Source: Burkholderiales bacterium
GTDB taxonomy: Bacteria > Pseudomonadota > Gammaproteobacteria > Burkholderiales > Casimicrobiaceae
DNA: 55,379 bases
NCBI GenBank assembly: GCA_020851255.1
Contig: JADZDA010000150.1
Location: forward strand, 1 to 55,379
Direction of reading: 5' to 3'
The position numbers were made by a program, and so were the translations under genes. Below the pieces are notes generated by a model. That model was not told where the DNA came from. It saw only the letters and a list, made by a program, of their open reading frames with translations, and did no database searches. Of this stretch, positions 1 through 55,379 are shown in pieces (within the stretch, counting starts at the first letter, position 1; each line of letters starts with the position of its first letter).

Positions 1-2
1 AG

Positions 3-1016
3 CTCGTCCGCTACGCGAAGGGCGACCGCGTCGAGCTCGAGCGCAACGACGGCTGGTGGGGCGGGAAGACGCCGTGGGAGAAGGTCACGCTGCGGCTGCT
101 CACCAACGACGCGTCGCGGGTCGCGGCGCTCCTCGCCGGCGACGTGCAGGCGATCGAGGCGGTGCCCACGGCCGACGTCGCGAGGCTCAGGCAGGACAAA
201 CGGCTGTCGATCTACCGGCAGGTGTCCGACCGGCTGATGTACGTCCACATGGACAGCGCGCGCGACGCGACGCCGCACGTCACCGCGAAGGACGGCAAGC
301 CGCTCGCGAAGAACCCGCTGAAGGACCCCCGCGTGCGCAAGGCGCTGTCGATGGCGATCAACCGGCCGGCGATCGTCGAGCGCGTGATGGAGGGCGAGGC
401 GGTCCCCGCCGGGCAGCTCGTGCCCGAGTTCCTGTTCGGCGCGACGAAGAACCTGAAGGTCGAGAAATTCGACCTGGAGGGGGCGAAGCGGCTGCTCGCC
501 GAAGCCGGCTACCCGGACGGGTTCGCCGTGACGCTGCATGCGACCAACAACCGCTACGTCAACGACGCCAAGATCGCGCAGGCGATCGCGCAGATGTGGA
601 CCCGGGCCGGCCTGAAGACCGACGTCGTCGCGATGCCCTCGGCCACGTTCTTCCCGCAGGCGACCGAACTCAAGTTCAGCGCGCTGCAGGCCGGCTGGTC
701 GACGGGCACCGGCGAGGCCTCGTCGTCGCTCAAGGCGCTGCTGATGACGTTCAGCCGCGAGAAGGGCTTCGGCACGGCGAACCGCGGGCGCTACTCGAAC
801 GGCAAGGTCGACGCGCTGACCGAGGACGCGCTGATGACCGTCGAGGACGTCAAGCGCGAGGCCTACCTGCAGCGCGCGACCGAGATCGCGATCAACGACA
901 CCGGCCTGATCCCGCTGCACTTCCAGGTGAGCCTGTGGGCGACGCGCGACGGGATCGGGTACGTGCCGCGCGTCGACGAACAGACGCTCGCGCACAAGTT
1001 CGCGCCGCGCAGGTGA
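3..1016 (+). CDS. ABC transporter substrate-binding protein, family 5 (5'-truncated by window edge)
   Basis: The frame is open from the first bases of the window and ends at TGA 1014-1016, so at least 337 residues are visible and the N-terminus with its signal peptide lies outside. The sequence has the pattern of the C-terminal two thirds of an extracellular solute-binding protein of family 5 (DppA/OppA type): an NDASRVAALLAGDVQAIE segment, then KDPRVRKALSMAINRPAIVE, then a long lobe ending in a conserved region around IPLHFQ. Family members bind peptides, nickel, opines or similar ligands in the periplasm and deliver them to an ABC importer. No permease or ATPase gene is visible downstream, so those partners would have to lie upstream. 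The ligand cannot be told from the sequence. The next gene begins 43 bp later on the same strand. Confidence 0.88.
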   Translation, partial: LVRYAKGDRVELERNDGWWGGKTPWEKVTLRLLTNDASRVAALLAGDVQAIEAVPTADVARLRQDKRLSIYRQVSDRLMYVHMDSARDATPHVTAKDGKPLAKNPLKDPRVRKALSMAINRPAIVERVMEGEAVPAGQLVPEFLFGATKNLKVEKFDLEGAKRLLAEAGYPDGFAVTLHATNNRYVNDAKIAQAIAQMWTRAGLKTDVVAMPSATFFPQATELKFSALQAGWSTGTGEASSSLKALLMTFSREKGFGTANRGRYSNGKVDALTEDALMTVEDVKREAYLQRATEIAINDTGLIPLHFQVSLWATRDGIGYVPRVDEQTLAHKFAPRR

Positions 1017-1059
1017 CGCCGGCCTTGCACGCGGACCGCGCGCTCCCGGACCGGCGCCG

Positions 1060-2526
1060 ATGAACGCGCCGCTGCCCGCGCACGCGGTGCGCACACCCGC
1101 CGCGCACTGGATCGGCGGACGATTCGTCTCCGCCCGCGGCGGCGCGACGCTGCCCGTCGTCGATCCGTCCGACGGTGCGCCGTTCGCCGCGATCGGGCGC
1201 GGCGACGCGGACGATGTCGCGTCGGCGATCGCCGCGGCGCGTGCCGCGTACGACGGCGCATGGGGCCGGACCGCGCCGGCCGACAAGGGGCGCCGCCTCG
1301 CCGCGCTGTCGCGCGCGATCGGCGAGCGCGCCGAGGAGTTCGCGTGGCTCGAGGCGCGCGACTGCGGCAAGCCGCTCAAACAGGCGCGCGCCGACGTCGC
1401 CGCCTGCGCGCGCTATTTCGAGTTCTACGGCGGCGCCTGCGACAAGCTGCACGGCGAGACGATCCCGTACACACCGGGCTACGGCGTGCTCGCCTGGCGC
1501 GAGCCGCACGGCGTGACCGGACACATCATCCCGTGGAATTATCCGCTGCAGATCTTCGGGCGCAGTGTCGGCGGCGCGCTGGCCGCCGGCAACGCGTGCG
1601 TGGTCAAGCCCGCCGAGGACGCCTGCCTGTCGATCCTGCGTCTCGCCGAACTCGCCTCGGAGGTCGGGTTCCCGGCCGGCACCGTCAACGTCGTGACCGG
1701 CCTGGGCGCGGAGGCGGGGATAGCGCTCGCGCGCGGCGAGATCGACCACCTGTCGTTCACCGGGTCGGCGGCGACCGGCACGATCGTCGCGCAGGCGGCC
1801 GCGGTCCGGCACGTGCCGGTGACGCTGGAGCTGGGCGGCAAGGGACCGCAGCTCGTGTTCGACGACGCCGACCTGGACGCGGCGCTGCCGGCGATCGTCA
1901 ACGCGATCGTGCAGAACGCCGGGCAGACCTGCTCGGCGGGCAGCCGGCTCCTGGTCCAGCGCTCGCGCTACGACGAGACGCTCGAGCGCGTCGGACGCGC
2001 GTTCGCCGCGCTGCGCGTGGGCCCGGCGTTCGCCGATCTCGACTGCGGACCGCTGATCCGCGCTTCCCAGCGCGACCGGGTCGCCGGCTTCCTCGACGAA
2101 GCGGTGGCTGCGGGCTACCGGGTGGTCGCGCGGGGCACGATCGCCGCGGACGCGCCGGCGGGCGGCTACTACGTCGTGCCGACGCTGGTCGCCGACGTAC
2201 CCGCCGACGCGCGCATCGCCTGCGACGAGGTCTTCGGGCCGGTGCTCGCCGCGATGGCGTTCGACGACGAGGCCGACGCGGTCAGGCTCGCCAACGCGAC
2301 GCCCTACGGCCTGGTCGCCGGCGTCTGGACGCGCGACGGCGCGCGCCAGTTCCGGATGGCGCGCGCGATCCGCGCCGGCCAGGTCTTCGTCAACAACTAC
2401 GGTGCCGGGGGCGGTGTCGAGCTGCCGTTCGGCGGCGTCGGTCGCTCCGGCCACGGCCGCGAGAAGGGGCTGGAGGCGCTGCTCGGCTTCACGCAGTTGA
2501 AGACGGTCGTCTTCCGGCACGGCTAG
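1060..2526 (+). CDS. NAD(P)-dependent aldehyde dehydrogenase family protein
   Basis: A 488-residue protein of normal length for the ALDH superfamily, which oxidises aldehydes to acids with NAD(P). The Rossmann-type coenzyme region is present (IIPWNYPLQI, then VVKPAEDA, then the FTGSAATG turn). The general-base glutamate is in LELGGKGPQ (E257) and the catalytic cysteine in GQTCSAGSR (C291); both sit at the usual positions. The motif EVFGPVL and the C-terminal PFGGVGRSGHGREKG are also present. It most resembles the betaine aldehyde / aminoaldehyde dehydrogenase branch, but the substrate is inferred only loosely. It follows the solute-binding protein gene closely and may oxidise a product of the imported compound. 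Confidence 0.93.
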   Translation: MNAPLPAHAVRTPAAHWIGGRFVSARGGATLPVVDPSDGAPFAAIGRGDADDVASAIAAARAAYDGAWGRTAPADKGRRLAALSRAIGERAEEFAWLEARDCGKPLKQARADVAACARYFEFYGGACDKLHGETIPYTPGYGVLAWREPHGVTGHIIPWNYPLQIFGRSVGGALAAGNACVVKPAEDACLSILRLAELASEVGFPAGTVNVVTGLGAEAGIALARGEIDHLSFTGSAATGTIVAQAAAVRHVPVTLELGGKGPQLVFDDADLDAALPAIVNAIVQNAGQTCSAGSRLLVQRSRYDETLERVGRAFAALRVGPAFADLDCGPLIRASQRDRVAGFLDEAVAAGYRVVARGTIAADAPAGGYYVVPTLVADVPADARIACDEVFGPVLAAMAFDDEADAVRLANATPYGLVAGVWTRDGARQFRMARAIRAGQVFVNNYGAGGGVELPFGGVGRSGHGREKGLEALLGFTQLKTVVFRHG

Positions 2527-2544
2527 GGAGAGGATCGGACCGGC

Positions 2545-3180
2545 ATGCACGAATGCAGCAAGGCGGTCGCGCGGCGACTGCACGATGCGCGGTTCGCGAC
2601 GCGCTGGTTCGTCGGCGACGGCATCGACATCGGCGCCGGCGGCGATCCGCTGGGCAAGTACCGCGAGCTCTTCCCGGGCATGCGCTCGTGCCGCGCGTGG
2701 GATCTGCCCGACGGCGACGCGCAGACGCTGCCCGGTGTCGCCGACGAGACGTTCGACTTCGTCCACTCGAGCCACTGTCTCGAGCACATGCGCGAGCCGG
2801 CGGCCGCGCTCGACCACTGGATCCGTGTCGTCAGGCCGGGCGGCCATCTCGTGATCATCGTTCCCGACGAGGATCTCTACGAGCAGGGCGTGTTCCCGTC
2901 GACGTTCAACGCCGACCACAAGTGGACGTTCACGATCGCCAAGTTCGCGAGCTGGTCGCCGAAGTCGGTCAATGTCACCGATCTCTTGAACGGCGTCTCG
3001 GACCGCGTGCAGCCGGTCAGGATCGAGCTGCTCGACGCCACCTACCGCTATGTCGGCGTGCCGCGCGTCGACCAGACGATGACGCCGGTCGCGGAGTCCG
3101 CGATCGAGATCGTGCTGCGCAAGTGGACCGCGGACGAACTCGCGCTGCGCGGGCGCGTACGGCGGTCGGCCGGCGGATGA
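2545..3180 (+). CDS. class I SAM-dependent methyltransferase (type 11-like)
   Basis: A 211-residue protein with a methyltransferase core. The glycine-rich SAM-binding loop is GIDIGAGGDPLGKY near residues 28-41, motif II is FDFVHSSHCLEHM, and the post-II strand is VVRPGGHLVIIVPDEDLY. The family transfers a methyl group from S-adenosylmethionine to small molecules or glycans in the cytoplasm. The acceptor is unknown. It lies between an aldehyde dehydrogenase and an SDR on the same strand, a little upstream of the GDP-fucose genes, so a sugar-modifying role is possible but not shown. The gene starts 18 bp after the aldehyde dehydrogenase stop codon, with GGGAGAGGA upstream as a plausible ribosome-binding sequence. 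Confidence 0.85.
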   Translation: MHECSKAVARRLHDARFATRWFVGDGIDIGAGGDPLGKYRELFPGMRSCRAWDLPDGDAQTLPGVADETFDFVHSSHCLEHMREPAAALDHWIRVVRPGGHLVIIVPDEDLYEQGVFPSTFNADHKWTFTIAKFASWSPKSVNVTDLLNGVSDRVQPVRIELLDATYRYVGVPRVDQTMTPVAESAIEIVLRKWTADELALRGRVRRSAGG

Positions 3181-3262
3181 GCGCGCCTGACGGCGGGCCG
3201 CGCCGGAGCGCCCCGTGCGGCGCCGGGCGCCACCGGGAACGGCATCGACGACGGGGAATCGC

Positions 3263-4018
3263 ATGCGTCTGAACGACAAGGTCGCGATCGTGACCGGGGC
3301 CGGATCCGGCTTCGGCGAAGGCATCGCCAAGCGCTACGCGGAGGAGGGCGCGCGCGTCGTCGTCAACGACCTGAACGCGCACGGGGCCTCGCGCGTCGCC
3401 GCGCAGATCAACGCGGCCGGAGGGCGCGCCCACGCGGTGCCCGGCGACGTGTCGCGTGACGCCGACGTGGCGCGACTGGTGGCGACCGCGCTCGCCGCGT
3501 ACGGCGACCTGCACGTCGTCGTCAACAACGCCGGGACCACGCATCGCAACCAGCCGATGCTCGACGTGTCCGAGGACGAGTTCGACCGGATCTACCGGGT
3601 CAACGTCAAGAGCCTGTTCCTGACCGCGAAGCACGCCGTGCCGCACTTCCGGGCGAAGCGCGACGGCGTCTTCGTGACCATCGCCTCGACCGCCGGCGTG
3701 CGCCCGCGTCCGGGGCTCACCTGGTACAACGGCAGCAAGGGCGCGGCGATCGTCACGTCGCGCTCGATGGCGGCCGAGCTCGCCAAGGACAACATCCGGG
3801 TCAACGTGATCAATCCGGTGGCCGGCGAGACCGCGATGCTCGCGCAGTTCATGGGCGAGGACACGCCGGAGACGCGGATGCGCTTCGTCGCGTCGATTCC
3901 GCTGGGCCGGCTGTCGAAGCCGGGCGACATCGCGGCGGCGGCCGTGTTCTTCGCCTCGGACGAGGCGGCGTTCGTCACCGGCGCCTGCCTCGAAGTCGAC
4001 GGCGGCCGCTGCGTCTGA
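3263..4018 (+). CDS. SDR family NAD(P)-dependent oxidoreductase
   Basis: A classical short-chain dehydrogenase/reductase of 251 residues. It has the cofactor motif TGAGSGFGEG near the N-terminus, VNNAGTT in strand 4, the catalytic serine in the IASTAG segment, and the YNGSK catalytic Tyr/Lys pair. The C-terminus EVDGGRCV is typical of FabG/glucose dehydrogenase-like SDRs. The frame stays open upstream to 3215, but the ATG at 3263 gives the standard MRLNDKVAIVTGAG start, so the shorter form was chosen. Its substrate is not evident. It converges on the fcl gene across a 46-bp gap. Confidence 0.92.
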   Translation: MRLNDKVAIVTGAGSGFGEGIAKRYAEEGARVVVNDLNAHGASRVAAQINAAGGRAHAVPGDVSRDADVARLVATALAAYGDLHVVVNNAGTTHRNQPMLDVSEDEFDRIYRVNVKSLFLTAKHAVPHFRAKRDGVFVTIASTAGVRPRPGLTWYNGSKGAAIVTSRSMAAELAKDNIRVNVINPVAGETAMLAQFMGEDTPETRMRFVASIPLGRLSKPGDIAAAAVFFASDEAAFVTGACLEVDGGRCV

Positions 4019-4064
4019 GCGCCGCGGTTCCCCGGGGCGGAGCCTGAGCGGCGCCGGGGGGCTT

Positions 4065-5021
4065 TCAGGCGGCCGCACCGGTCCCGGGGACCGTTTCCTC
4101 GAACCAGCGCAGCGTGCGCGCGAGGCCGTCCTCGAGCGGGATCGTCGCGCGGAATCCGAACGCGCGCTCGGCGCGCGAGGTGTCGAGCCGGCGGCGAGGC
4201 TGGCCGTCGGGGCGGGTTGCGTCCCAGGTGAATTCGCCGTCGTAGCCAGCGATCCGGGCGATCGTCGCCGCCAGCGCGCGGATCGTGATCTCCTCGCCGG
4301 TCGCGAGATTGACCGGCGCCTCGTCGTCGTAGTGCTCCGCGGCGAGGAGCAACCCGCGCGCGGCGTCGTCGACGTAGAGGAACTCCCGGCTCGCCGTGCC
4401 GCTGCCCCAGCAGGATACGGTCCGCTCGCCGCGCCGGCGCGCCTCGACGCACTTGCGCACCAGCGCCGGGATCACGTGACCGTGCTCGAGGTCGAACGAG
4501 TCGCGCGGACCGTAGAGGTTCGCGGGGAGCACGTGGATCACCGGCAGTCCGTACTCCCGGCGGTAGGCCTGGCCGCCGGCGAGCAGCGCGCGCTTGGCGA
4601 TCGCGTAGGGCGCGTTGGTTTCCTCGGGATAGCCGTTCCACAGGTCGTCCTCGCGGAAGGGCACCGCCGTTTCGCGCGGGTATTCGCAGGCGGTCCCGAC
4701 GACGACGACCTTGCCGACGCCGGCGATGCGCGCGGCCTCCAGCAGCTCGACGCCCATCACCGCGTTCTCGTAGAAGAACCGGGCCGGGTGGGCGCGATTC
4801 GCGCCGATGCCGCCGACGACGGCGGCGAGGTGCAGCACCGTCGACGGTCGCACCGAGTCGAGGAGCCGGCGCACCGCCGCGCGCTCGGTCAGGTCGACGT
4901 CGCGCCGGCGCGGGACGACGACCGACGCGCAGCCGGCCGCGCGCAGCCGGTCGACGACGTGCGAACCCAGGAATCCGGCGCCGCCGGTGACCACGACGCG
5001 CTGGCCGCGCCAGTGGCTCAT
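4065..5021 (-). CDS. fcl: GDP-L-fucose synthase (GDP-4-keto-6-deoxy-D-mannose epimerase/reductase)
   Basis: A 318-residue NAD(P)-dependent extended SDR that carries out the last step of GDP-L-fucose synthesis, an epimerisation at C3/C5 followed by NADPH reduction. The N-terminal [15 protein letters not shown] dinucleotide motif is followed by [34 protein letters not shown] (catalytic Tyr/Lys), [20 protein letters not shown] (with the conserved His) and [11 protein letters not shown]. All are family hallmarks. Where the E. coli enzyme has a serine two residues before the catalytic cysteine, this one has threonine (GTAC). Its start overlaps the gmd stop by four bases (ATGA), so the two are translationally coupled. 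Confidence 0.94.
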
Positions 5022-51299: not shown

Positions 51300-53162
51300 A
51301 TGGCCGTGATCGTCACGTTGCACGAGCGACTCGAGCGACTCGCCCGCGCCGCGCCGGGAGCGGACGCGATCGTGGTTCCGGGGCGCGGGCGCCTCGACCG
51401 TCAGGGGCTCGCGCGCCAGATCCGGATCGTCGCGGCGCATCTCGCGCGCCTGGGGCTCGGGCACGGCGATCGGGTCGTCGTCGCGCTGCTCGACAGTCCC
51501 ATGGCGGCGACCGCGTTCCTCGGCGTGTCCGCGGTGACCGCGGCGGCACCGCTCAATCCCCAATACCGTCCGGCGGAATTCGAGTTCTATTTCGGCCGGC
51601 TCGCGCCCGCGTGCGTGGTCGTCGCCGCCGGCGCCGGCGGAGCCGCGCGCGAGGTCGCGTTGTCGATGGGCATCCGTGTGCTGGACATCGTCACCGAACG
51701 CGGGGACGCGCCGGGCGCGTTCCGGTTCGCGGGTGCGTTCGAGGGCGACGGTCCGGTGCAGCCGCCGCCGGCAGCGCAGGACGTAGCCCTCGTGCTCCAC
51801 ACGTCGGGGACGACCGACCTGCCCAAGCGCGTTCCGCTCACGCACGCGAACCTGGCGGTCGCCGTCGACCAGGTCTCGGTCTCGCTGGGCCTGCGCGACG
51901 ACGACCGTTGCCTGCACGTGCTGCCGATGTTCCATGTCGGCGGACTCGTCGACAACATCGCCGCGCCGCTCGCCGCCGGTGGCGCGATCGTCGGCGCGCG
52001 CGGCTATTCGGTCGACGCGTTCTACGAGGCGCTCGACCTCGGTGCGCCGACCTGGACGCAGCTCGTGCCGCCGATGCTCGTCGAGGTGCTGGACCACGCG
52101 GACCGCCACGCCGGGGTCGTCGCGCGCCGTGGCCTGCGATTCGTGCGATCGGTGTCGGCGCCGCTTCCCCGGCCGTTGCTCGAGCGCTTCGAGGCCCGCT
52201 ACGGGGTTCCCGTGGTCGAGATCTACGGAATGACCGAGACCACCGGTGTGATCACCAGCAACCCGTTCCCCGTCGGCACGCGCAAACCCGGATCCGTCGG
52301 TGTGAGTGCGGGACCGCGGATAGCGATCGTCGACGCGGATGGGCGGGCGCTGCCGCGTGGCGCGGTCGGCGAGGTACGCGTCAGCGGCGGTTGCGTGATG
52401 CGGGGCTACGGCGACGCCGCCGACGCGCCGGGGCTCGGCCTGGTCGACGGCTGGCTCGCCACGGGCGACGCGGGATACCTCGACGATGGCGGTTACCTGT
52501 TCCTCGTCGGACGCTACAAGGAGATGATCAACCGGGGCGGGGAGAAAGTGCTGCCGCGCGAGATCGACGATGCGATCGCCGATCATCCGGCGATCGCGGA
52601 CGCCGCTGCGTTCGGCGTGCCGCATCCGACACTGGGAGAGGACGTAGCCATCGCCGTGGTCGCGAGGCCGGGCGCCGTCATCGATCGTGCATCGATCGTC
52701 ACCCACCTCGCGCGGCGGCTGGCCTATTTCAAGGTCCCCCGGACCATCCACGTCGTCGAGACGATCCCGCGCTCGGCGTCGGGGAAGGTCCAGCGTCTGC
52801 GGCTCGCCGAGGCGCTGGGAGCGAACGATGGGGCGCCAGCGGCCGCCGCGGCATACGTCGCGCCCGCGACGCCGGTCGCCGCGGCGATCGCGCTGCTTTG
52901 GCGGGACGTGCTCGGTGTCGCCCGGGTTGGCGCCGACGACGACTTTTTCGTGCTGGGCGGCGACTCGCTCAAGGCTGCGAGCTTCCTCGCCCGTTTCGAG
53001 GCGGCCTGCGGCGTCGCGATACCGGTGTCGGCGATATTCGATGCGCCGACTCCCGCTGGACTGGAGGGGCGGCTCGCACGCGAACACCCCGGGATCGAGG
53101 ACCGGCTCGCGGCGGCGGCGGCCGGGCCGGCGACGTCCGCGCGCGATCGTTTCGAGCTTTGA
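51300..53162 (+). CDS. AMP-binding (adenylation/acyl-CoA synthetase-like) enzyme with C-terminal carrier domain
   Basis: A 620-residue protein. An ANL-superfamily domain covers about residues 1-515. The phosphate loop is LHTSGTTDLPKRVPLTHAN, where the usual TSGTTGxPKGV has D and R in place of two glycines. YGMTETTG, the hinge TGDAGYLDDGGYLFLVGR and the C-terminal catalytic lysine in SASGKVQRLRL (K496) are intact. A short linker leads to a peptidyl/acyl carrier domain with DDDFFVLGGDSLKAASFLAR (phosphopantetheine Ser556), then an acidic-hydrophobic tail ending DRFEL. It probably activates an acid as the adenylate and loads it on its own carrier. It follows uxaC by 11 bp and overlaps the next gene. 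Confidence 0.9.
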   Translation: MAVIVTLHERLERLARAAPGADAIVVPGRGRLDRQGLARQIRIVAAHLARLGLGHGDRVVVALLDSPMAATAFLGVSAVTAAAPLNPQYRPAEFEFYFGRLAPACVVVAAGAGGAAREVALSMGIRVLDIVTERGDAPGAFRFAGAFEGDGPVQPPPAAQDVALVLHTSGTTDLPKRVPLTHANLAVAVDQVSVSLGLRDDDRCLHVLPMFHVGGLVDNIAAPLAAGGAIVGARGYSVDAFYEALDLGAPTWTQLVPPMLVEVLDHADRHAGVVARRGLRFVRSVSAPLPRPLLERFEARYGVPVVEIYGMTETTGVITSNPFPVGTRKPGSVGVSAGPRIAIVDADGRALPRGAVGEVRVSGGCVMRGYGDAADAPGLGLVDGWLATGDAGYLDDGGYLFLVGRYKEMINRGGEKVLPREIDDAIADHPAIADAAAFGVPHPTLGEDVAIAVVARPGAVIDRASIVTHLARRLAYFKVPRTIHVVETIPRSASGKVQRLRLAEALGANDGAPAAAAAYVAPATPVAAAIALLWRDVLGVARVGADDDFFVLGGDSLKAASFLARFEAACGVAIPVSAIFDAPTPAGLEGRLAREHPGIEDRLAAAAAGPATSARDRFEL

Positions 53163-55379
53163 CGGCGATCGACGACCTCCTGGCGCGGTTGGCCCGCACT
53201 GACGTGCGCCTCTCGGTCGACGGCGCGAAGCTCGTCGTGGACGCCCCCGCGGGAGCGCTCAGCGAGACGATGCGCTCGGAGCTCGCGGCCCGCAAGGCCG
53301 AAATCCTCGAACGGCTCGCGTCCCGCGACGCGGGAGCCGACGCCGAAGTCCTGCTGTCGTCGAGTCAGGAAAGGCTGCTCTCGCTGCTCGCCGCCCGCGG
53401 ACAGACTTCCGCTTGGCATGTCGCGTTCGGGTTCGACCTGGAAGGTCCGCTCGACGTCGAGAGGTTCGGGCGCGCGCTCGAAACGGTGGTATCGCGCCAC
53501 GAGGCCCTGCGTACGTCGTTTCCGGCGGATGGGGCGGGGCGCCGCCGGCCGTTCGTGCATGCACCCGCGCCGATCGCGTTGCGAACGCCATCGCCCGCGC
53601 CTGGCTCCGGCGCTGCCGGCATCGCGGCCGCGGAGCAAGGACTCGACTCCGCGATCCGCGATGAAGCATGCCGTGCATTCGACCTCGCGAACGGTCCGTT
53701 GTGGCGCGCGTTGCTCGCCAACACCGCTCCGGACCGACATCGATTCGTCTTCGTCGCGCACCACCTGATCTTCGATGGTCGCTCCAGGGCGGTCCTGCTG
53801 GCGGAGATCGCGGAGGTCTACCGGGCGACCGGGGTCGGGGAGGAACCGAGGCTCGCGAGTCCGGCGCCACGCTATTCGGATTACGTCCGGTGGCGGCATG
53901 CCCGGGAGAACGAAGCCGCGCGACAGGCCCAGGTCGAATACTGGGCGCGCAAATTCGCGGGATCGCCGGCCGAGCTGCGACTGCCCCTCGACCGCCCGCG
54001 GACCGCCGTCGGGACGGACGGTTGCAGATTCCGCGCTTTCGAATTGCCGCCGGCGACGCTCGCCACCGTGCGCGCCGTGGCGCGCCAGCTCGCCGCGACC
54101 GAGTACATGGTGCTCCTGGCATCGGTCTGCGCCTGGTTCGCGCGGCAGACCAGCCAGGACGACCTGATCGTCTGCGCGCCGCTCGCCGGTCGCGACCGCG
54201 GGGAATTCGAGGGTCTGATCGGCCGATGCAACACATTCGTCGCTCTGAGGATCGACGCCGGTGCCAATCCCGCGTTCGCCGAGCTCGTTGCGCGCTCGCG
54301 CTCGGCGGTGCTCGAGGCCTGGCAGCACCAGCATGTGCCGTTGCAGGTGGTCGCCGCGCTGCCGGGTCTGGTTCGCGTGCCGCTCGCCCGCGCGATAGTC
54401 AACTACCAGGACGCCGCGGCCCGCCGCTTCGATCTTCCGGGGATCGTCGCCCGACCCGTCGAAGTGCGTACCGGGGCCGCCGACGTGGACTTCGCGCTCC
54501 AGCTCGAGGCCACCATCGGGGGCGGGCTGGCGGCGGTGGTCGAGCTGCGCGCCGACCTCTTCGACGCTGCGACCGCCGACCGTTTTGTCGATGGCTGGTC
54601 GCGGCTGCTCGAGGCCGCCGTCGCCGATCCGGCACGATCGCTCGCATCGCTACCCGGCGCGCCGGACGAGGACGAGGTCGAGAACTGGCTCAACGCGCAT
54701 CCGAAGGTCGACCGGGCGGTCGTCGTGCGACGATCGCCGGATCGGTCGGCGACCGCCTACGTGCAGCTCGATCGCGACGATCCGCCCAGCCACGCGGAGA
54801 TCCGGGATGCGCTCGCCGGTGCGTTCCCCGCGTGGAAGCTGCCGGCGGCGGTCGTCACCGTCGCCCGTTTCGCGCGACTCCCCGACGGCCGCATCGACCG
54901 CGACGCGTTGCCGCCTCCGCCGATGTCCGTGGATCGTCCGCGCGAGCAGCCGCGCACGACGCTCGAGCGAAGGCTCGCCGCGATCTGGAAGCGCACGCTT
55001 TGGCTTGACCGCGAGATCGGAGTCGAAGAAGACTTCGTCGAACTCGGCGGACATTCACTGCTCTCGGCGCAGCTCGTCGTCGAGGTCGAGCGCGAGTTCG
55101 GACGTGCCCTTCCGGACCATGCGATCGCCGGATTGTCGACGGTGGCGGCGATGGCGCGGGCGCTCGAGTCCGACGCGACCGTCGCGCCGGTGGAGGAAGG
55201 CGACGTCGACGAGGCGACGGCCCAGATCCTGCATCGACAGCGGGCTTACGTCGCTTCCTGGGTCGGAGTTCGCGCCCGGCCGGACGGACTCGTCTTGGGT
55301 CTGAACGTCGACGGTGGGCGCTGCCCGGTCTTCTGGTGCCTGCAGGGTTACGGCGAACTCCTGCAGCTCGCGCGCTATA
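53159..55379 (+). CDS. NRPS: docking - condensation - partial adenylation - carrier - thioesterase (3'-truncated by window edge)
   Basis: The frame is open from TTG 53159 to the window end (740 codons), overlapping the preceding stop (TTGA). Residues 1-55 form a TubC-type N-terminal docking domain (DDLLARLARTDVRLSVDG, then APAGALSETMRSELAARKAE), which supports the TTG start. Residues about 65-490 are a condensation domain with an intact catalytic AHHLIFDG (H201, H202, D206). At about 500-582 comes only the small C-terminal adenylation subdomain (WLNAHPKVDRAVVV, then RLPDGRIDRDAL); the 400-residue core is missing and the usual catalytic Lys is Arg. A carrier domain has ELGGHSLLSAQLVVE (Ser633). 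The last residues (RCPVFWCLQGYGELLQLA) look like the start of a thioesterase. Codon choice is looser (more A/T-ending codons) than in the uronate genes. Confidence 0.88.
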   Translation, partial: MTAIDDLLARLARTDVRLSVDGAKLVVDAPAGALSETMRSELAARKAEILERLASRDAGADAEVLLSSSQERLLSLLAARGQTSAWHVAFGFDLEGPLDVERFGRALETVVSRHEALRTSFPADGAGRRRPFVHAPAPIALRTPSPAPGSGAAGIAAAEQGLDSAIRDEACRAFDLANGPLWRALLANTAPDRHRFVFVAHHLIFDGRSRAVLLAEIAEVYRATGVGEEPRLASPAPRYSDYVRWRHARENEAARQAQVEYWARKFAGSPAELRLPLDRPRTAVGTDGCRFRAFELPPATLATVRAVARQLAATEYMVLLASVCAWFARQTSQDDLIVCAPLAGRDRGEFEGLIGRCNTFVALRIDAGANPAFAELVARSRSAVLEAWQHQHVPLQVVAALPGLVRVPLARAIVNYQDAAARRFDLPGIVARPVEVRTGAADVDFALQLEATIGGGLAAVVELRADLFDAATADRFVDGWSRLLEAAVADPARSLASLPGAPDEDEVENWLNAHPKVDRAVVVRRSPDRSATAYVQLDRDDPPSHAEIRDALAGAFPAWKLPAAVVTVARFARLPDGRIDRDALPPPPMSVDRPREQPRTTLERRLAAIWKRTLWLDREIGVEEDFVELGGHSLLSAQLVVEVEREFGRALPDHAIAGLSTVAAMARALESDATVAPVEEGDVDEATAQILHRQRAYVASWVGVRARPDGLVLGLNVDGGRCPVFWCLQGYGELLQLARY

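Follow-up and report, generated by a model that had tools for sequence, protein, structure and literature searches.

The window analyzed here is an entire contig (C150; JADZDA010000150.1, 55,379 bases) from a Burkholderiales bacterium, and it closes within a nonribosomal peptide synthetase (NRPS) gene whose module keeps the C-terminal subdomain of an adenylation (A) domain without the A core. From position 53159 to 55379, the encoded protein comprises a TubC_N docking domain, a condensation (C) domain, a remnant of the AMP-binding C-terminal subdomain, a carrier domain (peptidyl carrier protein, PCP, also called thiolation or T domain), and the start of a thioesterase (TE). We interpret it as a conserved core-less termination module, in which an A-PCP protein encoded directly upstream would act as acyl donor, Ser633 of the carrier would be loaded in trans, the thioesterase would release the product, and the remnant would have a structural or docking role; taken jointly, these proposals stand about level between holding and failing. 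The features of the gene are as follows.

53159–55379, forward strand: gene of the finding, with a TTG start and 740 visible residues, open at the contig end.
53168–53314, forward strand: TubC_N N-terminal docking domain, residues 4–52 (PF18563, 44.7 bits).
53345–54667, forward strand: condensation domain, residues 63–503 (PF00668, 232.4 bits, E 1.2e-68).
53759–53779, forward strand: HHxxxDG active-site motif, HHLIFDG, starting at residue 201 (sequence motif).
54656–54673, forward strand: 6-residue linker GAPDED from the end of the C domain to the remnant (landmark comparison with the relatives G1072 and G1401).
54674–54907, forward strand: remnant of the A-domain C-terminal subdomain, residues 506–583 (PF13193 over residues 506–571).
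54884–54901, forward strand: A10 motif DGRIDR, lysine replaced by arginine (alignment with relatives).
54971–55165, forward strand: carrier domain (PCP), residues 605–669 (PF00550, 49.1 bits).
55055–55057, forward strand: phosphopantetheine serine Ser633 of GGHSLL, a motif that begins at residue 630 (sequence motif).
55292–55378, forward strand: first 29 residues of the thioesterase domain, then contig end (alignment to the complete thioesterases of G014 and Brevundimonas).

Pfam profiles gave no match to the AMP-binding core (PF00501) in the 740-residue frame at E 0.01, and AMP-binding_C (PF13193) scored 28.5 bits against a gathering cut-off of 24.5. Comparison of residues 500–588 with Protein Data Bank (PDB) chains using phmmer yielded 38 matches at E ≤1, the best being A-domain C-terminal subdomains (4gr5, 3.5e-9); for the C domain, the best PDB chain by sequence is Txo2 (6p1j). 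Landmarks chosen by eye lie 6 residues apart in the window versus 431 in G1072 and 433 in G1401. Alignment with core-bearing relatives shows that the missing part extends from the C–A linker through the A8 hinge region, and that the remnant starts at the helix after A8. The A10 lysine, present in all three core-bearing relatives compared (G1072, G1401, and G358), is replaced by arginine in the window, by glycine in G014, and by glutamate in Brevundimonas sp. Leaf363, the latter two being the same-junction relatives described below, and the A8 hinge region is absent from all three remnants. The module therefore has neither the A core nor the A10 lysine of a canonical C-A-PCP-TE module. A domains without the A8 hinge and the A10 lysine are expected to catalyze neither half-reaction, and because both are gone, the remnant should be non-catalytic. 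A preliminary description of this stretch had proposed that the core is absent and the subdomain kept, that the leftover is not catalytic by the usual mechanism, and that the condensation (HHLIFDG) and carrier (GGHSLL, Ser633) motifs are intact; all of this holds, and motif and alignment checks bore out its coordinates, the lysine-to-arginine change in DGRIDR, and the assignment of Ser633. Three points go beyond that description: the N-terminal TubC docking domain, the 4-base overlap with the upstream gene, and the coincidence of the window with the whole contig, which leaves no further sequence of the gene in this assembly.

Two relatives share the junction between C domain and remnant. A set of 61 genomes (the window's own and others from its genus, family, and order) was compared at E 1e-3; matches of any kind occurred in 15 of them and a full-length one in two, namely the window's own genome and G014, from the same genus. 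The G014 match (contig G014:C5) is 47% identical over window residues 4–740 (48% in a second alignment), and the complete gene (L040:6397–9561) encodes 1055 residues with TubC_N, C, remnant, carrier, and thioesterase, followed by a C-terminal stretch (L040:6397–6867) that is weakly Ig-like (16.1 bits against a cut-off of 28). Two short peptide patterns compared with genome contigs matched 40 stretches, which came down to one locus, that of Brevundimonas sp. Leaf363. The gene there (L075:4657–7368) has the domain order of the window, an AMP-binding_C score of 34.9 bits, and 38% identity to G014. TubC_N (PF18563) is N-terminal in all three modules, and the thioesterase (PF00975) is complete in both relatives.

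Six other matches were looked into individually. G045 (C-linker-carrier without a clear subdomain) and G019 and G025 (full modules) were rejected by eye as same-junction relatives. The remaining three, G1401 (C-A-PCP-TE), G1072 (A-PCP-TE), and G358 (Mur ligase-A-PCP-TE), resemble the window in having a related subdomain, carrier, and thioesterase but differ from it in retaining the A core and the A10 lysine; the upstream part of G1072 is missing at a contig start, and G358 has no C domain. In G358 (L113:6469–10380), the Mur ligase and A-PCP-TE are fused in a single reading frame, and the thioesterase is a relative of those discussed here. By eye, G1072 (L105) has an Ig-like stretch after the thioesterase, as in G014; Leaf363 has none.

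The preliminary description had pointed to a sequencing or assembly deletion at about position 54650, with close relatives carrying a complete core, as the finding that would overturn it. The source assembly does invite the suspicion, as it consists of 313 contigs and is 86% complete and 4.8% contaminated. However, the same junction is found in G014, assembled in about 10 contigs, and in Leaf363, and neither of these whole-gene relatives has a complete core; the probability that we attach to an artifact is negligible, and the two relatives rule it out.

The remnant is under protein-level constraint, as the C domain is. Its identity is 44/28/36% (window–G014, window–Leaf363, and G014–Leaf363), much as in the C domain (45/30/30%), and the alignment of the three remnants has no gaps over 78 columns. 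Second codon positions in the remnant are identical at fractions of 0.72/0.49/0.51, far above the 0.25–0.26 obtained after shuffling, whereas third positions (0.46/0.46/0.44) barely exceed their shuffled level of 0.38–0.39, which shows that the protein sequence is constrained. These data bear on the possibility that the module is a relic, dead or decaying, for which its patchy occurrence might speak. The codon-position test argues against a pseudogene, since the tested domains, including the remnant, are constrained; the frame is also open, the motifs are intact, and a related cassette occurs in an alphaproteobacterium as well as in the window's order. Decay is, in our view, highly improbable.

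Remnant and carrier were modeled together with AlphaFold2 from two sequences, giving a mean predicted local distance difference test score (pLDDT) of 75 and a predicted template modeling score (pTM) of 0.58. In this model, the remnant folds as a C-terminal subdomain, matching those of MenE and Txo2 at 2.0–2.3 Å over 82–86 columns. The top-ranked structure matches align both remnant and carrier at 13–16 Å, because the two domains are differently placed. A model of the whole C-remnant-carrier region (mean pLDDT 43.9) was too poor for use.

In all three genomes, the module is preceded by an adjoining A-PCP gene, which in the window has the following position.

51300–53162, forward strand: upstream gene, A-PCP with an acyl-type adenylation domain and a tail ending in RDRFEL (ATG at 51300; Pfam AMP-binding, AMP-binding_C, and PP-binding on 51306–53159).

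The G014 and Leaf363 counterparts are 52% and 40% identical to this protein. The upstream TGA stop and the TTG start of the module overlap by 4 bases in the window, as the start and stop do in G014, and there is no overlap in Leaf363. The closest PDB relatives of the upstream A domain are oxalyl-CoA synthetases (E about 1e-87), and its best NCBIfam match is of the FadD7 type (336 bits, under the cut-off of 650 for that family). The A-PCP proteins end in FEL in the window and in G014 and in FDV in Leaf363. In rhabdopeptide synthetases, N-terminal docking domains of the TubC_N fold bind the partner protein by its last eight residues, and the docking domain of TubC itself is a dimer with a different binding site (PMC6195595). 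Judged from these sequences, the F-[ED]-[LV] tail may dock to the TubC_N domain of the module. The A-PCP proteins of G014 (L040:9561–12419) and Leaf363 (L075:1711–4581) carry an extra sulfotransferase domain; that of the window (51300–53162) does not and still has a similar C-terminal tail. Upstream, the window and G014 have in common a mannitol-dehydrogenase gene (by Pfam in the window and by eye in G014) and, by eye, a further gene that we take to be a uronate isomerase. Directly downstream of the module, G014 (L040:5213–6343) and Leaf363 (L075:7372–8514) have an amidohydrolase-like gene, distantly similar to cytosine deaminase; the window ends too early to reach this position.

In the mechanism that we propose, the upstream A-PCP protein would activate a carboxylic acid, dock through its tail to TubC_N, and give the acyl group to the C domain. 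Its A domain has oxalyl-CoA synthetases as nearest solved relatives, so what it contributes, on the donor side of the C domain, is most likely an acid. The amine for the acceptor side would have to come from elsewhere. An adenylation enzyme encoded at another place would load an amino acid onto Ser633 of the carrier in trans; the C domain would then join acyl group and amino acid, and the thioesterase would release the product. The remnant may keep the distance between C domain and carrier workable, stabilize the protein, or ease the access of an A domain from another protein to the carrier. A more far-reaching version, in which the remnant is a dedicated landing-platform adapter for a foreign adenylation enzyme and the cassette is a mobile two-gene minimal synthetase spread across bacterial classes, with host A domains choosing the second building block, seems to us distinctly unlikely.

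It is also conceivable that the A domain of the cassette itself charges both carriers. It is the sole A domain found beside all three modules, and there are precedents: CmnA-A1 loads the A-less module CmnI (PMC12400406), and the first A domain of SidD loads T2, next to a truncated A domain (PMC10192304). However, an oxalyl-CoA-synthetase-like enzyme would select a substrate lacking an amine on which the C domain could act, and we consider this explanation improbable. For the same reason, the upstream A-PCP, named in the preliminary description as a possible loader of Ser633, is better seen as supplier of the donor acyl group.

The second carrier, that of the module, and the thioesterase are among the most conserved parts of the cassette. 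Identities for the second carrier are 70/44/46%, compared with 57/39/35% for the first carrier, in the upstream protein. The thioesterase elbow of G014 and Leaf363 reads GGNCQA, with cysteine at the nucleophile position, and that of G1072, G1401, and G358 reads GGNCQG; cysteine nucleophiles have been described for the thioesterases of SulM, ObiF1, and AB3403 (PMC11298585). The GGNCQA elbow and the well-conserved second carrier fit a carrier that is really loaded, and the higher conservation of this carrier lends modest support to loading.

A competing explanation follows glidonin release: the C domain would transfer the acyl group from the upstream carrier onto a free amine, and the remnant and the second carrier would do no more than stabilize the fold. 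This is the main rival to trans-loading, by analogy with module 13 of the glidonin synthetase GdnB, where A* and T13 are required for soluble, stable protein (PMC10587159). The retained motifs and high conservation of the second carrier and thioesterase speak against such a passive role, but the same conservation is compatible with the free-amine route, because mutation of T13 in glidonin also ended production in vivo (PMC10587159). On balance, we regard free-amine condensation as somewhat unlikely.

A loader for Ser633 was sought among the AMP-binding domains of the genomes, and none was identified. Counting all substrates together, AMP-binding matches number 34 in G000 and 36 in G014. Leaf363 has seven AMP-binding genes, comprising that of the cassette, one unlinked A-PCP, and five that are best scored by acyl-CoA or acyl-ACP ligase families. 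The unlinked protein, a stand-alone A-PCP with the tail FQDLEI (L114:6413–8329) beside what appears by eye to be a TonB receptor gene, is a candidate trans-loader; its best family is the amino-acid adenylation model TIGR01733 (230 bits, under the cut-off of 317). It is present in two of 121 Brevundimonas genomes at E 1e-60, with 37% identity in the second.

Regarding origin, the window, G014, and Leaf363 fall together on one side of a branch in a C-domain tree of 63 rows, with a Shimodaira–Hasegawa-like approximate likelihood ratio (SH-aLRT) support of 100. The rows were collected by tblastn of the window C domain on fetched loci at E 1e-20, leaving out alignments of <330 query residues, stop-containing sequences, near-copies, and a duplicate row of the window. 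At E 2.5e-16, the C domain of G1401 missed this threshold and was added afterward, upon which the three still grouped (SH-aLRT 99); without the Leaf363 row, window and G014 grouped with a support of 99. Among the fetched loci, the thioesterases of the three are nearest to those of G1401, G358, and G1072. Based on these comparisons, a single origin of the three members is likely, and the gap may have arisen through excision of the core or through a recombination event that placed a C domain next to the subdomain of another module.

Several observations weigh against the reading as a conserved, trans-loaded module. In G014, there is no second AMP-binding domain closer than 50 kb to the cassette, which equally suits the free-amine route; on the cassette contig, the other nearest AMP-binding domains are at 16 kb and 171 kb, that of the cassette being at 73 kb. 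The unlinked A-PCP of Leaf363 is about 268 kb away from the cassette, and G000 and G014 contain nothing close to it (27–31% identity at best), so that a shared unlinked loader was not found, with this protein as the only query. Module 13 of GdnB, C-A*(C-terminal subdomain only)-T-TE, condenses free putrescine (PMC10587159). At the level of the module itself, AMP-binding_C in G014 scores 20.7 bits, under the 24.5 cut-off, and the thioesterase of the window ends before its active site. The Brevundimonas C-domain branch is long (3.25, and 3.05 with G1401 added). Finally, G1401, a full module with the nearest thioesterase, has a distant C domain (26% identical to that of the window, on a long branch and unsure in its place in the tree), which calls for caution about a simple deletion from such a module. 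Loading in trans, which the preliminary description had deduced from the missing core, remains plausible, tempered by the absence of a nearby AMP-binding domain in G014 and by the use of a free amine in glidonin.

The arrangement is infrequent. On the window side, it was found in 2/64 genomes of the family, 2/399 of the order, and 1/321 of the class, counting the center genome; on the Leaf363 side, it was found in 1/121 Brevundimonas, 1/199 of the family, and 1/385 of the class, Leaf363 itself in each case. These counts are lower bounds, as samples overlapped, cut-offs ranged from 1e-25 to 1e-80, and few candidates were scored per genome. Among the matches listed for these samples, the rest were to the C domain or to subdomain plus carrier, with or without thioesterase. 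When plasmids were surveyed with a 257-residue query spanning the junction, 762 records matched, 32 of which had one place covering at least 80%. Five matches were fetched, four among the 32 plus H42, which covers 78%, and Pfam scanning took in four loci (L123, L124, L125, and L127), leaving out L126 and 28 of the 32. L124 and L125 proved to be core-bearing modules, and L127 an A-T. L123, on plasmid pSM-2 of Skermanella mucosa, shows the opposite kind of remnant: the terminal module of its NRPS coding sequence (1–4093) has a C domain, a stretch resembling the end of an A core (by eye), a carrier, and a TE, with no C-terminal subdomain. With the G014 protein as query, 943 plasmid records matched, none with one place covering 80%; H30 and H28 were fetched from this search, and only their C domains were used, in the tree. 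In IMG/VR, 132 stretches fitted a pattern and none was confirmed.

If the module is naturally core-less and small enough to be expressed whole, it would offer a test of the role of the A C-terminal subdomain in the geometry between C domain and carrier. It could also serve to test the role of this subdomain in trans-loading, which is relevant to NRPS engineering. Automatic domain annotation may mistake such modules for complete ones or for plain C-T.

Carriers without a functional A domain of their own are known from other systems. In the A-less modules CmnI and VioI of capreomycin and viomycin synthesis, the carrier likewise has no A domain of its own, and trans-loading of CmnI has been demonstrated; unlike in the window, the C domain comes after the carrier, and the part of the paper cited makes no mention of an A remnant (PMC12400406). 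Module 2 of the fungal siderophore NRPS SidD/Nps6 contains a truncated A domain (dA) and has its carrier loaded by the A domain of another module; dA lacks about 290 N-terminal residues and so keeps more of the A domain than the window does, and the SidD loader resides in the same protein (PMC10192304). Syringomycin and albicidin are reviewed in PMC8949500. In kutzneride synthesis, a non-functional A* is said to be critical for transfer by the stand-alone A domain KtzN (Strieker 2009, per PMC10587159), a role similar to the one proposed here, but the present cassette showed no linked stand-alone A domain for an amino acid.

The closest counterpart is module 13 of glidonin synthesis in Schlegelella brevitalea, also of the Burkholderiales (GdnB C13-A*-T13-TE), in which the core is absent and only the C-terminal subdomain is kept, an architecture called rare in that report, with kutzneride cited (PMC10587159). 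Its features recur in the window: a C domain with HHxxxDG, a subdomain kept without its core, and a carrier serine followed by a thioesterase. In glidonin, the module is the last of 13, A* is reported to resemble other A domains with a coverage of 190/409, and the TE has two GXSXG motifs (PMC10587159); in contrast, the window has a 78-residue remnant in a separate protein with TubC_N and an acyl-type A-PCP partner. The preliminary description was thus right to call the arrangement unusual, but it is not new, since such an A* occurs in glidonin and, according to the glidonin paper, in kutzneride. The C-A(C-terminal subdomain only)-T-TE architecture is already published for glidonin, and what is new here is the docked two-protein cassette with an acyl-type partner.

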